This document shows, in pieces, positions 59,130-63,582 of a stretch of 64,000 bases of DNA; position 1 is the first letter of the stretch, and the number at the start of each line of letters is the position of its first letter. Under the pieces are notes generated by a model. That model searched no databases and was not told the origin of the DNA. It saw only the letters and a program-made list of their open reading frames with translations. The position numbers were made by a program, and so were the translations under genes. The DNA is taken from contig NZ_BBJR01000043.1 of NCBI RefSeq assembly GCF_000739875.1, forward strand, positions 1 through 64,000, given 5' to 3'. This DNA comes from Comamonas aquatica NBRC 14918 (GTDB taxonomy: Bacteria > Pseudomonadota > Gammaproteobacteria > Burkholderiales > Burkholderiaceae_C).

Positions 59130-62060
59130 TCAGGCCTCGCCCTGGTTCACCAGGTGCTGGCCCACGATGCCGGTCAGCTCGAACATGTTGATGCGGTCCT
59201 TGCCGAACACGGGCAGCAGCTTGGCATCGGCCACGATGACGCGCTTGTCCTGGGGGTCTTGCAGGTTGTGGGCCTTGACGTAGTCCCAGACCTTCTTGAC
59301 CACCTCGGTGCGCGCCACGGCGCCATCGCCGATCACGGCGGCCAGCGCGGCATCGGGCCGGTAGTTGGCGGCCGCGGGCTTGCGCGCCGCGGTCTTCTTG
59401 GCCGCAGGGGCCTTCTTGGCAGCGGGTGCTTTTTTGGCTGCAGCGCTCGTCCTGGCTGCGCTAGCAGCTCCTGTTTTTGCTGCCGCGGTCTTGCGCGCCG
59501 GGTACTTGGACTCGCGCTGCTCGAACTCGAAGTTCACCTTGCCCGCTTCCTTGTCCCAGACCAGGAAGGCCTTGAAGGCGCGGCGCGTGCGGTTGGAGAC
59601 GAACTTCTCCAGCAGGTCGGTCTTGCCGGTGGCCAGCAGCTTGCCCATCTGCTCGCGCTCGATGGGCTGCTGCAGGATGATCTGGCCGCTCTTGAAGTCG
59701 CAGCTGGGCACGGCCTGCTGCGGCGTGGGCACGGCCTTGGCGCAGACATAGTTGGCGCCATGCTCGAACACAGGCGCGCCGCACTTGGGGCAGGCGCCCA
59801 GGCTGTGCTGGTGGCTGAAGTCGACGATCTCGCCGGACTCCTCGTCCTTGTCGTCGCCGAAGTCGAACTCCAGCTTGAAGTTGCCAGCCTCCTCATCGCG
59901 CACGATGCCGACCTCGGCCACGAAGGGCCAGCCGGCCTTGGAGCGGAAGCCCTCCAGCGGGCCGATGCGGCGGTCGCGCAGCAGCTGCTCGGCCTCGGCG
60001 GTCTCGAAGGTGCGGCCCGCGGGCGACTTGGTGAAGGAGAAGCCACAGCCCTCGCTGGTGCCGTGCACGCCGGTGCAGGCGTAGCGGCGGTAGTTTTCCT
60101 TGACGATGCCGCCGCAGTTCGGGCAGGGCGTGGCCAGCGTCGCGTAGTCCCCGGGGATGGTGTCGCGGTCGTATTCCTTGGCCTTCTTCACCATGCGCTC
60201 GGTCATGGCGGCGATTTCCTGCATGAAGGCGGCGCGCGACAGCGCACCCTTTTCCATCTGCGACAGCTTGTACTCCCACTCGCCGGTCAGGTCGGCGCGG
60301 CACAGCTCGTCCACCTCCAGGCCACGCAGCAGCGTCATCAGCTGGAAGGCCTTGGCCGTGGGGATCAGCTCGCGGCCTTCGCGCAGCATGTACTTCTCGG
60401 TCAGCAGGCCTTCGATGATGGCCGCGCGCGTGGCGGGCGTGCCCAGGCCTTTTTCCTGCATAGCGCTGCGCAGCTCTTCGTCGTCGATCTGCTTGCCGGC
60501 GCTTTCCATGGCGCCCAGCAGCGTGGCTTCGGAGTAGCGCGCGGGCGGCTTGGTCTTCAGGCCCTTGGACTGGGCATCGCTGGTGCGCGGCTGCTCGCCG
60601 GGCTGCACCGCCACCAGGGGCTGGCCCTTGTCGCCTTCCTTGGCATCCTCCACCTCGTTGGCGGCTTCCTTGCCGTAGATGGCCAGCCAGCCGGGTTTGA
60701 CCAGCACCTTGCCCTCGGTCTTGAAGCTGTGCTGCTCCACCTTGCTGATGCGCGTGGTGACTTGGTATTCGGCGCTGGGGAAGAACACGGCCATGAAGCG
60801 GCGCACCACCAGGTCGTAGAGCTTCTGTTCGGCCTCGCTTAGGCCCGATGGGGCCTGGGTGGTGGGGATGATGGCAAAGTGGTCCGACACCTTGCTGTTG
60901 TCGAAGATACGCTTGCTGGGCCGCACATAGCCCGCGCCGATGGCCTGCTGGGCGAACGGCTCCAGGTGGCGCATGCCGCTGGCCGCCAGCATCTCGAAGG
61001 TCTGCTTGGCCACGGGCACGTAATCCTCGGGCAGGGCGCGCGAATCGGTACGCGGGTAGGTCAGGGCCTTGTGGCGCTCGTACAGGCTTTGCGCCAGCGC
61101 CAGCGTGGTCTTGGCCGAGAAGCCGAACTTGCCGTTGGCCTCGCGCTGCAGGCTGGTCAGGTCGAACAGCAGGGGCGAGGCCTGGGTGGTGGGCTTGCTC
61201 TCTTCCGTGACGGTGGCGGGCTTGCCTTTGACCGCTGCGGCAATCGCTTGCGCTTCGGCAGCGCTCCACACACGGTCGGCCTTGGCCTCGGCGTCTTCGG
61301 TTTTCTTCCACTGGGGGTTGAACCACTTGCCCAGGTACTGGCCGGCCTGGGCGTCGAAGGTGCCGTGCACTTCCCAGTAGTCACGGCTGACGAACTTGCG
61401 GATCTTGTCCTCGCGGTCCACCACCAGCGACAGCGTCGGCGTCTGCACGCGGCCCACGGTGGTCAGGAAGAAGCCGCCATCGCGCGAGTTGAAGGCCGTC
61501 ATGGCACGCGTGCCGTTGATGCCCACCAGCCAGTCGGCCTCAGAGCGGCTGCGCGCCGCATCGGCCAGGCCCTGCATCTGCTGCTCGCTGCGCAGCTTCT
61601 CGAAGCCTTCGCGGATGGCCTGCGGGGTCATCGACTGCAGCCACAGGCGCTGGATGGGCTTGCCCAGGCCGCCCTTGGCGCCGCCGGCGTACTGCTCGAT
61701 CAGGCGGAAGATCAGCTCCCCTTCGCGGCCCGCGTCACAGGCGTTGATCAGCTGCGTCACATCCTTGCGCTTGGCCTGCTTGACCACGGCATTCAGGCGG
61801 CTCTTGGTCTTGTCCACGGGCTTGAGGTCGAAGCGCGGGGGGATCACCGGCAGGTTGGCAAAACTCCATTTGCCGCGTTTGACGTCGAACTCCTCGGGCG
61901 CCTGGATCTCCACCAGGTGGCCCACGGCACTGGTGACCACGAACTGCTCGTTCTCGAAATGGTCCTCGTGCTTGTCAAACTTGCCGTAGGCGGGCGTGAG
62001 GGCCCGCACGATGTCCTGTGCCACCGACGGTTTTTCCGCTATCACCAAGGTCTTTGTCAT
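59130..62060 (-). CDS. topB: DNA topoisomerase III with C-terminal SWIB domain
   Basis: Type IA topoisomerase, 976 residues. N-terminal TOPRIM with TLVIAEKPSVAQ and acidic DAGREGELI (109-117); catalytic Tyr335 in LTYPRTDSR; Cys-rich zinc-ribbon segments CPNCGG and CPKCGAP. After about residue 857, a 43-residue Lys/Ala histone-H1-like linker (AAKKAPAAKK repeats), then a SWIB/MDM2-like domain (about 900-976: YRPDAALAAVIGDG, KKVWDYVKAHNLQDP, MFELTGIVGQHL). Start MTKTLVIAEKP. Divergent from a SET-domain gene. Confidence 0.95.
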   Translation of the reverse strand: MTKTLVIAEKPSVAQDIVRALTPAYGKFDKHEDHFENEQFVVTSAVGHLVEIQAPEEFDVKRGKWSFANLPVIPPRFDLKPVDKTKSRLNAVVKQAKRKDVTQLINACDAGREGELIFRLIEQYAGGAKGGLGKPIQRLWLQSMTPQAIREGFEKLRSEQQMQGLADAARSRSEADWLVGINGTRAMTAFNSRDGGFFLTTVGRVQTPTLSLVVDREDKIRKFVSRDYWEVHGTFDAQAGQYLGKWFNPQWKKTEDAEAKADRVWSAAEAQAIAAAVKGKPATVTEESKPTTQASPLLFDLTSLQREANGKFGFSAKTTLALAQSLYERHKALTYPRTDSRALPEDYVPVAKQTFEMLAASGMRHLEPFAQQAIGAGYVRPSKRIFDNSKVSDHFAIIPTTQAPSGLSEAEQKLYDLVVRRFMAVFFPSAEYQVTTRISKVEQHSFKTEGKVLVKPGWLAIYGKEAANEVEDAKEGDKGQPLVAVQPGEQPRTSDAQSKGLKTKPPARYSEATLLGAMESAGKQIDDEELRSAMQEKGLGTPATRAAIIEGLLTEKYMLREGRELIPTAKAFQLMTLLRGLEVDELCRADLTGEWEYKLSQMEKGALSRAAFMQEIAAMTERMVKKAKEYDRDTIPGDYATLATPCPNCGGIVKENYRRYACTGVHGTSEGCGFSFTKSPAGRTFETAEAEQLLRDRRIGPLEGFRSKAGWPFVAEVGIVRDEEAGNFKLEFDFGDDKDEESGEIVDFSHQHSLGACPKCGAPVFEHGANYVCAKAVPTPQQAVPSCDFKSGQIILQQPIEREQMGKLLATGKTDLLEKFVSNRTRRAFKAFLVWDKEAGKVNFEFEQRESKYPARKTAAAKTGAASAARTSAAAKKAPAAKKAPAAKKTAARKPAAANYRPDAALAAVIGDGAVARTEVVKKVWDYVKAHNLQDPQDKRVIVADAKLLPVFGKDRINMFELTGIVGQHLVNQGEA
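59430..59477. repeat. dispersed hairpin repeat R11 inside topB
   Basis: T-rich edge, GCTGCAGCGC, loop, GCGCTAGCAGC, TCCTGTTTTT. It shares a perfect 15-mer with R6. It lies in frame in the linker of topB, encoding about KTGAASAARTSAAAKK. Confidence 0.75.
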
Positions 62061-62082
62061 TGAGTGCTCTCGTCTTTTTGCA

Positions 62083-62112
62083 GCGGTGGCCGCCACGCCG
62101 GGCAGCCACCGC
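62083..62112. other. hairpin in the topB leader
   Basis: GCGGTGGC/GCCACCGC, 8-bp stem with a 14-nt loop, 23 bp before the topB ATG on the minus strand. Possible mRNA-level control. Confidence 0.35.
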
Positions 62113-62128
62113 TTCTACAATCCATCTT

Positions 62129-62179
62129 CACGCACGCGTGCGTGCGCATGCACATGTGCGCGCATGTGCGCATGTGTGC
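62129..62179. repeat. 51-bp alternating purine-pyrimidine tract (Z-DNA-prone)
   Basis: Every base from 62129 to 62179 alternates pyrimidine and purine with no break (CG, CA, TG steps), including the palindrome ACGCACGCGTGCGT at its left. It fills the centre of the 143-bp divergent promoter region between topB and the SET gene. Confidence 0.93.
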
Positions 62180-62203
62180 CTATTTAAGTTATCAGAGATT
62201 CCA

Positions 62204-62728
62204 ATGCCCAGCACTGCCAATCCCCCATCTCACGGCAAGCGCATCCAGGCGCGCCGCTCCGGCGTCCATGGCAGGGGCGTGTTCGCCGTGCAGGACATTG
62301 CGGCCGGCGAAACCATCATCGAGTACCGGGGCGAGGTCATCAGCTGGGACGAGGCACAGCGCCGCCACCCGCACGACCCCAGCCAGCCCAACCACACCTT
62401 CTACTTCCACGTGGACGAGGATGTGGTGATTGATGCGGCGCATGGCGGCAATTCGGCACGCTGGATCAACCACAGCTGCGCGCCCAACTGCTACACCGAC
62501 GAACGCGGGGGGCGCATCTTCATCGTGGCGCTGCGCAACATTGCCGCCGGGGAAGAGCTGAACTACGACTACGGCCTGATCATCGAGGAGCGCTACACGC
62601 CCAAGCTCAAAGCCGAGTACGCCTGCTGGTGCGGCGCCCCCACCTGCCGCGGCACCATGCTGGCGCCCAAGCGCGGCTGGCGCCCGCCCATGCCCGAGGA
62701 CTTCGCCGCGCAAGGAACCACCCCGTGA
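62204..62728 (+). CDS. SET domain protein lysine methyltransferase
   Basis: 174 residues. Eukaryotic-type SET motifs: GRGVFAVQD (23-31), cofactor/substrate block RWINHSCAPNC (86-96), and ELNYDYG (118-124) with the catalytic Tyr; post-SET zinc cysteines CWCGAPTC (141-148). All catalytic motifs are intact. The substrate is unknown; candidates are Lys-rich proteins such as the topB linker. Start MPSTANPPSH. Overlaps birA (GTGA). Confidence 0.9.
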   Translation: MPSTANPPSHGKRIQARRSGVHGRGVFAVQDIAAGETIIEYRGEVISWDEAQRRHPHDPSQPNHTFYFHVDEDVVIDAAHGGNSARWINHSCAPNCYTDERGGRIFIVALRNIAAGEELNYDYGLIIEERYTPKLKAEYACWCGAPTCRGTMLAPKRGWRPPMPEDFAAQGTTP

Positions 62729-63582
62729 GCACCACCCCGACCCGCTGGCCCGCGGAAGACCTGTGGCTGGAGATCGCCCCGCGGCTGCCGGGCTTCACGG
62801 TCGAAGTCCTGCCCGAGATCGACTCCACCAACACCGAGCTGATGCGCCGCGCGCGCAGCGGCCAGGTCGATCCCATCGTGCTGGTCGCTGAATCGCAGAC
62901 CGCCGGCCGCGGACGCCTGGGGCGCCAGTGGATCAACCAGCCCGGGGATTGCCTGATGTATTCGCTGGGCCTGATGCTGCAGCCCGCCGACTGGTCCGGC
63001 CTGTCCCTGGTGGTGGGACTGAGCATTGCCGAGTCGCTGCAGGCCGCGCCCGACGCCAGCACCCCGCGCCTCGGCGTCAAGTGGCCCAACGACCTGTGGC
63101 TGTGGGACGGGCGCAAGCTGGCCGGCACCCTGATCGAGACCGCCAACGTGCCCGCCGACCTACTGGCCCCGGCCCATGGCAGCGGCCCCGGGCCGGCACG
63201 CTTTGTCATCCTCGGCACCGGCATCAACGTCTGCCCGCCACCGTCCCGCAGCGACGCCCTGCCCACCCCGGTCGCCTGCCTGCAGGACCTGGACCCGCGC
63301 TGGAGCGCCCCGCTGGCGCTGCAGCGATTGCTGCCACGGCTGGTGGAGGACGTGCTGCTGTTCGCCGACCACGGTCTGGCGCCATTCGTGGACCGCTTTG
63401 CACACCGCGACGTGCTGCGCGGTCGGGGCGTGCACCTCAGTGATGGCAGCCAGGGCGTGGCCGAAGGCATTGCCGCCGACGGCAGCCTGTTGCTGCGCAC
63501 CCCCCAGGGACTGCGCCCCGTCATCAGCGGCGATGTCAGCGTGCGCCCGATCGACATGGCCTTGCCCACTGCCCGCCCCTAA
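62725..63582 (+). CDS. birA: biotin--[acetyl-CoA-carboxylase] ligase
   Basis: Attaches biotin to the carboxyl carrier protein AccB. 285 residues. EIDSTNTELMRR, biotin-binding QTAGRGRLGRQW, and KWPNDLWLWDGRKLAGTLIE. No N-terminal DNA-binding HTH, so it is enzyme only. GTG start overlaps the SET stop by four bases (AAGGAA upstream), so the two are translationally coupled. Confidence 0.93.
   Translation: MSTTPTRWPAEDLWLEIAPRLPGFTVEVLPEIDSTNTELMRRARSGQVDPIVLVAESQTAGRGRLGRQWINQPGDCLMYSLGLMLQPADWSGLSLVVGLSIAESLQAAPDASTPRLGVKWPNDLWLWDGRKLAGTLIETANVPADLLAPAHGSGPGPARFVILGTGINVCPPPSRSDALPTPVACLQDLDPRWSAPLALQRLLPRLVEDVLLFADHGLAPFVDRFAHRDVLRGRGVHLSDGSQGVAEGIAADGSLLLRTPQGLRPVISGDVSVRPIDMALPTARP

Follow-up and report, generated by a model that had tools for sequence, protein, structure and literature searches.

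A Z-DNA-prone tract kept between divergent topB and SET genes in Comamonas aquatica and its family: a candidate supercoil-sensing switch

In the genome of Comamonas aquatica NBRC 14918 the gene of a DNA topoisomerase III (topB) and that of a SET-domain protein lie back to back, and the locus raises the question of what holds the two genes together and what is kept in the region between them. The DNA analysed here, hereafter the window, is a stretch of 64,000 nucleotides (contig NZ_BBJR01000043.1, positions 1 to 64,000). An earlier note on it had reported an intact SET gene divergent from topB across 143 bp, which is borne out (gap at positions 62061-62203), and had seen in the pair a chromatin-like module in which the SET enzyme would methylate lysines of a linker in TopB. 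We found that the gap holds a long tract of perfectly alternating purines and pyrimidines, the alternation of which is very probably maintained by selection. We propose, with our confidence evenly divided, that this tract is a conserved supercoil-sensing Z-DNA switch in the topB/SET divergent promoter. The element in question is the following:

62129..62179, no strand assigned: 51-bp perfectly alternating purine/pyrimidine (Z-DNA-prone) tract, found by a run scan.

The tract stands alone in its own genome, since throughout the 3.73 Mb every listed match to a 26-bp alternating pattern falls inside it; the matches number 13 in each of the two phases, as expected for one 51-bp run. Its place is shared by related bacteria. 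Of the 81 topB/SET gaps in the window and 80 relatives (largely Comamonas, Acidovorax, Delftia and their kin), 80 have a run of 18-63 nt, and 781 kb of relatives' sequence contain 79 runs of at least 18 nt in this gap versus 3 elsewhere. One relative (L047) has a longest run of 6, yet keeps both a TACAAT box, described below, and the gene pair. These relatives were the top 80 among 220 retrieved by way of SET, and they therefore lean to close kin and test the linkage of the two genes rather than the presence of SET. A census of 143 genomes of the window's family gave 135 SET-side intergenic regions, 7 genomes labelled as lacking SET (in one of which, G045, the label is a contig-end artefact) and 1 without a topB start; the intergenic lengths are 47-806 nt, apart from that of G079, which is counted among the 135 with a run of 14. 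In this census the longest run has a median of 24 nt and is at least 18 nt in 101 regions, at least 15 nt in 115 and at least 12 nt in 124. Random 170-bp stretches from elsewhere in the relatives' loci served as a control and contained runs of at least 12, 15 and 18 nt in 857, 55 and 12 of 20,000 draws, respectively, while the longest run in 34 non-coding-like stretches elsewhere was 15. Fifty-four census genomes have a run of at least 26 nt at this place, which is the sole such run genome-wide in 43 of them and is accompanied by others in 11. A further 15 genomes show such long runs elsewhere only; four of these (G045, G065, G083 and G089) are without a census intergenic region, and G045 proved, on reading of its locus, to carry a 50-nt tract. 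In a sample of 160 genomes of the order, the 26-bp pattern was found in 16 (20 when runs in the other phase only are counted), and 3 of these belong to the window's family.

The signature of the tract is that the alternation is preserved and the letters are free. Sixty-nine aligned sister pairs, in each of which a single member served to define the tract, show 141 transitions and 27 transversions in 2093 tract sites, and 388 and 665, respectively, in 6717 sites of the flanks (odds ratio 8.95, p 2.5e-31). Transversions affect 1.3% of the tract sites versus 9.9% of the flanking ones, and total change amounts to 8.0% versus 15.7%. Insertions and deletions in the tract are of even length in 51 cases and of odd length in 5, against 161 and 228 in the flanks (odds ratio 14.4, p 5e-13), but aligners prefer an in-phase placement of alternating sequence, so this figure restates the conservation and is hardly a separate proof. 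The steps that compose the longest runs, in a set of 211, are mostly of the CG/GC and CA/TG types, AT/TA accounting for 439 of 5502. Part of this pattern could arise without selection, by slippage and deamination, but these would hardly produce a more than sevenfold drop in transversions at one place across many genera, and the comparison of sister sequences makes it highly probable that the purine/pyrimidine alternation is under selection.

Two further elements lie on either side of the tract, both recognised by their conservation:

62116..62121, plus strand: TACAAT box, -10-like, directed towards SET, recognised through the conservation of TANAAT.
62183..62197, no strand assigned: box between the tract and SET, TTTAAGTTATCAGAG, which may include the SET ribosome-binding site, recognised by the pattern T[TC]CAnnnTAnC.

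These boxes were surveyed in the 119 family intergenic regions that have a tract. In 106 of them TANAAT occurs no more than 40 nt upstream of the tract, and in none on the minus strand; T[TC]CAnnnTAnC follows the tract in 64, the reversed control being found in 1; the window's copy is off by one base. A scan of the gap returned no full sigma-70 site. Loci with unusual spacing help to say to what the tract belongs. In L006 (genome G055) an additional gene between topB and SET, which we take to be of thioredoxin type from a general impression, points towards topB, and the tract is found on the side of SET; other genomes with long topB/SET intergenic regions may resemble this locus. The tract is far from topB in five further genomes with intergenic regions of 600-730 nt, and G032 and G049 have long intergenic regions and no tract. 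An interrupted tract lies on the topB side in G079, where SET is 8 kb off, and G140, in which the genes are apart, has no tract either at topB or at SET. From the long-intergenic, G079 and G140 loci we read the tract as a property of the topB/SET divergent promoter. That it belongs to topB alone was rejected on the topB of G140 and on 15 topB genes from other families, considered below, and that it belongs to SET alone on second SET genes in two family genomes (L272 and L273), which show none. The six family topB loci without an adjoining SET have runs of 21, 17, 11, 11, 7 and 6, and one of the four with short runs (6, 7, 11 and 11) is that of G140, with SET elsewhere.

How easily the tract would pass from the B- to the Z-form was calculated with the dinucleotide energies (Table 1) and the junction cost of PMC3024258, as given in the part of that paper available to us. 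With assumed values for two constants, the calculation gives the window's tract a critical superhelix density of -0.0385 when the domain is 5 kb long, -0.0465 when it is 2 kb and -0.0346 when it is 10 kb. The tract is the easiest calculated B-to-Z site of the 64-kb window, in which the best sites of 500-bp blocks have a median of -0.0489; in the census the calculated median critical density is -0.0391 (n=133), and 127 of the 133 intergenic regions lie beyond the window's 95th percentile. We propose that the locus is a conserved divergent unit in which topB and SET-birA flank a promoter region with a Z-DNA-prone tract that is maintained for its alternation. Local negative supercoiling past about -0.04 would flip the tract to the Z-form, and this flip would take up several turns and alter the activity of both promoters. 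TopB, as a type IA topoisomerase, removes negative supercoils, which would close a feedback loop, in either direction. A weaker suggestion is that SET may in addition methylate some protein of the nucleoid or the DNA-topology machinery; the SWIB-linker as such is probably not its target. The fuller proposal, that a Z-DNA switch selected for its alternation runs the topB and SET promoters family-wide, with SET as a second output modifying nucleoid or topology enzymes, is tentative, and we place it somewhat below an even chance.

The gene pair itself, the conservation of which the earlier note had proposed to check, is the rule in the window's family. In a sample of 150 genomes, 141 have a SET domain, 148 encode SWIB somewhere in the genome and 149 have a TopB-type match, which exceeds the cut-off of the NCBIfam model PRK14724 in 144. 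Both genes are listed in 137 genomes, and they are close and divergent in 131; reading of broken or partial loci raises the linked pairs to 134, adding L011, L119 (with a partial SET match) and L271. The underlying table leaves out the 6 of the 150 genomes without a listed topB, enters four two-piece topB matches as one, and has G017, G045 and G131 as unlinked, although loci L119, L271 and L011 show SET beside topB. The three genomes left over are G079, with the genes 8 kb apart, G065, undecidable with both genes at contig ends, and G140, which is unlinked. In G137 no SET is found by Pfam, yet the start of a SET gene is present at a contig end. Among the window and its 80 relatives the divergent arrangement is found in 81 of 81.

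On the topB side, the features are:

59130..62060, minus strand: topB, DNA topoisomerase III with a C-terminal SWIB domain, 976 aa from ATG (Pfam, NCBIfam).
59151..59363, minus strand: SWIB domain, residues 900-970 (Pfam; same place in the whole-genome search; PDB UAF30).
59367..59507, minus strand: Lys/Ala-rich linker, approximately residues 852-898 (about 47 residues), read from the translation.

The coordinates of the earlier note proved exact, and the H1-like Lys/Ala linker and the SWIB domain that it had described on topB are real. Pfam recognises in TopB the domains Toprim, Topoisom_bac, two stretches of Toprim_Crpt and SWIB. In the tail for which the earlier note had suggested a profile search (residues 900-976), SWIB (PF02201) matches residues 900-970 with E 9.1e-25 and 86.7 bits against a cut-off of 25, and the PDB matches of residues 888-976 are yeast UAF30 and SMARCD SWIB chains (best E 5.4e-15). 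PRK14724, 'DNA topoisomerase III', covers residues 1-970 with 2021.5 bits against a cut-off of 1088, and PRK06319, a topoisomerase I/SWI fusion model, scores 203.9 bits, under its cut-off of 868. The linker contains 10 Lys, counted by eye on the translation; 69 tabled linkers of SWIB-TopBs contain 4-9 Lys by an automatic rule that is narrower than the count by eye. The whole 3.73-Mb genome has a single SET match and two SWIB matches, the one in TopB and a free-standing one (G000:C58:46469-46687, L001) in an open frame of 174 aa. SWIB in a short frame is listed in many genomes of the family and is a possible donor of the TopB fusion.

On the other side of the gap lie the SET gene and its neighbour:

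62204..62728, plus strand: SET-domain protein, 174 aa, with post-SET cysteines (Pfam PF00856, PDB).
62725..63579, plus strand: birA, biotin-protein ligase, overlapping the SET gene by 4 bp (Pfam, NCBIfam).

The SET protein matches PF00856 with E 3.5e-27, its closest solved chain is human KMT2A/MLL1 (E 1.2e-27, PDB), and its translation keeps NHSC, ELNYDY and the post-SET CxCx4C; by domain and motifs it is a predicted KMT2-like SET-domain lysine methyltransferase. By text patterns, the NHSC-type, YDY-type and post-SET motifs are found in 81/81, 80/81 and 81/81 of the window and its relatives, in 29/42, 40/42 and 41/42 of further family SET loci, and in 27/32, 21/32 and 31/32 of SET loci from other families. 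The sole NCBIfam match is to LegAS4/AnkI, with 46.6 bits, far below the cut-off of 550. In the family, birA follows SET on the same strand in 109 of 110 loci, and only L059, which stops at a contig end, departs from this; L059 comes from a record labelled Pantoea sp. 18069 with a locus of Comamonas/Acidovorax type, which may be mislabelled or contaminated. In the SET-less loci L113-L116, birA adjoins topB, as though SET had been lost. The surroundings of SET were also read at 32 loci from other families within the order, mostly with about 3.5 kb on each side and some cut by contig ends. Here gyrB or topB adjoins SET in 6 of the 32 (gyrB in 5, topB in 4): gyrB is directly upstream of SET in L135 and L137, from one genus of family f32, and in L147, L148 and L150, from one genus of family f6, and NCBIfam confirms gyrB in 4 of 4 tested among these five loci. 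The order in f6 is gyrB, SET and convergent topB in the three loci that show gyrB; in L149 (f6) the contig end is too near to show gyrB, and SET and topB are convergent neighbours. SET thus accompanies topoisomerase genes repeatedly, not universally, and its presence beside gyrB or topB in these 6 loci makes a link between SET and DNA topology plausible. In other families, H1-like Lys/Ala tails are found on SET proteins themselves (L250, L252 and L146).

Several observations weigh against a conserved switch. In the census, 20 of the 135 intergenic regions have a run below 15 nt and 11 below 12 nt, which means that the tract is not indispensable, and no run above 12 was found in the 400 nt upstream of 15 other-family topB genes, which makes it a trait of one family. 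The scan of the gap located no topB promoter, and the two constants with assumed values in the B-to-Z estimate are that of the superhelical term and the twist at the junctions. The genome sets overlap in part and some sequences enter the sister pairs twice, so that the pairs are in part interdependent and their p-values overstate the significance. Neither gyrB nor topB is next to SET in 26 of the 32 other-family loci, among them L140 and L142, from another f32 group, and L133, L134 and L144, in which topB is 4 to 9 kb off. Finally, the tract begins 7-10 nt past the -10-like box in 84 of the 106 loci with a box, and on the SET-sense strand C among the pyrimidines exceeds G among the purines in 85 of 102 tracts, the reverse being true in 13, an asymmetry that Z-DNA alone does not explain. 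Both the position and the asymmetry leave room for a role at the RNA level, in which the tract would be an RNA or start-site element in the first transcribed part of the SET leader (or, on the opposite strand, of topB), kept for the transcript. Such a role alone would need neither strict alternation nor indels of even length. The hairpin energy of the tract beyond what alternation gives is a weak signal (mean z -0.27, with 13 of 102 below -1.64 and 3 above 1.64), and an Rfam search of the locus returned no family at gathering score and a single chance-level miRNA match (E 0.22); the idea that a hairpin or structured RNA explains the tract was therefore rejected, and we regard an RNA or start-site element as rather unlikely. 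It could also be argued that the tract is a mutational by-product, a dinucleotide seed grown by slippage and decaying from C to T with no selection, given that slippage and deamination do yield even indels and transitions and that the steps are mostly of the CG/GC and CA/TG types. The deficit of transversions and the halved total change relative to the flanks speak against this, as do the recurrence of a run of at least 15 nt at the same place in 115 of the 135 census genomes and the absence of a second run of at least 26 nt from 43 of the 54 that have one here; a by-product without selection is very unlikely.

With regard to the gene pair, the proposal of the earlier note that SET methylates linker lysines of TopB, tuning the DNA binding of the SWIB-topoisomerase, has in its favour the conserved neighbourhood and the lysines present in the window's linker and in those of the 69 tabled SWIB-TopBs. 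Nevertheless, the two genes face each other in 68 of the 71 genomes whose TopB carries SWIB, in 60 of the 63 whose TopB does not (SWIB-less meaning a PRK14724 match that ends ahead of the SWIB part) and in 3 of 3 with a truncated TopB match, which rules out a SET linkage dependent on SWIB; the tract, too, has a median length of 24 beside SWIB TopBs and 24.5 beside SWIB-less ones. A Lys-rich tail as the reason for the pair was rejected on account of Lys-free tails beside SET and of the reverse: in f6, SET stands beside TopBs with 0-Lys tails in all four loci (L147-L150), and in the window's family the tails of linked TopBs drop to 1-3 Lys in L123, L125 and L126, while L114 (G026) has SWIB and a Lys-rich linker with no SET match, and L139 and L141, from other families, have a Lys-rich TopB tail with SET not adjacent. 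Lys/Ala tails of TopB occur both with and without SWIB, in a table of 102 TopBs from which 6 were dropped for want of an anchor under the rule and in which L086 was wrongly entered as SWIB-less. Since linkage persists without SWIB and Lys-free tails stand beside SET, the SWIB-linker of TopB probably does not account for the pairing, and methylation of the linker lysines by SET is highly improbable, though SET might still act on some lysine of TopB. Of the chromatin-like module, the domains and the conserved pair stand; the tie of SET to SWIB or to a Lys-rich linker does not. A different possibility is that SET is bound to birA or to some other function and that its place beside topB is inherited by chance, as the 4-bp overlap, the almost constant presence of birA after SET in the family and the 26 other-family loci without adjacent topB or gyrB might suggest. 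However, none of the 32 other-family loci yielded a birA when searched with that of the window, gyrB or topB is adjacent in 6 of these, in two families (one genus each) and in differing order, and chance inheritance would not keep the tract; this explanation appears quite unlikely. The supercoil-sensing switch accordingly remains the reading that we put forward, at the even confidence given above.

The interest of the locus lies in a one-place element, a run of at least 15 nt in 115 of 135 family genomes, sampled from about 140 genera, and often the sole long run genome-wide, in a telling setting next to a topoisomerase gene, and the simple chromatin-like story is corrected in that the SET linkage is not SWIB-dependent. 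A selected role of Z-DNA in bacteria is a long-standing open question. In titles and abstract openings of the literature, with subscription journals mostly outside coverage, nothing was found on SET together with topoisomerase III and SWIB, on SET with a topoisomerase in Chlamydia or on SET with gyrB in Burkholderiales, and among the papers listed on Z-DNA with topoisomerase, Comamonadaceae or bacterial genomes none spoke of this pair or of a conserved promoter tract.

As to known systems, the full-length match of TopB to PRK14724 (NF011313, the SWIB form), far over the cut-off, means that the fusion of SWIB to topoisomerase III is already catalogued; the description of that family names the enzyme only, and the SET neighbour and the tract are additional here. 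The earlier note had drawn a parallel with Chlamydia, which holds in so far as a SWIB topoisomerase and SET proteins (PMC3980110, in the part available) both exist there. In Chlamydia trachomatis, however, SWIB lies at the C-terminus of TopA, and SWIB-containing TopAs are described as not found outside Chlamydia (PMC12445093). Both enzymes are type IA topoisomerases ending in SWIB, but they are different enzymes, and as TopBs of the window's family commonly carry SWIB, the likeness is one of analogy and not of membership. The bacterial SET proteins of Chlamydia, LegAS4/RomA, BtSET and BaSET are described, in the portion of PMC3980110 available to us, as acting on host histones. The window's SET has the domain in common with all of these, but it is chromosomal, has a topoisomerase as neighbour, and SET is present in 141 of the 150 family genomes. 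The reported Burkholderia effector BtSET (YP_443833; PMC3980110, in part) might itself belong to the widespread chromosomal SET family described here, in which case its interpretation as an effector would be affected.

If the proposal is true, the tract would be a natural conserved supercoiling sensor, and the locus a bacterial coupling of DNA twist and protein methylation. The E. coli gyrA, gyrB and topA promoters respond to supercoiling. A theory of stress-driven B-Z transitions, SIBZ, has been set out (PMC3024258, in the part available). The locus described here would share with these promoters and this theory the logic of DNA twist feeding back on a topoisomerase gene; unlike the E. coli gyrA, gyrB and topA promoters, it has a long Z-prone tract that is conserved, as a property, at the promoter.

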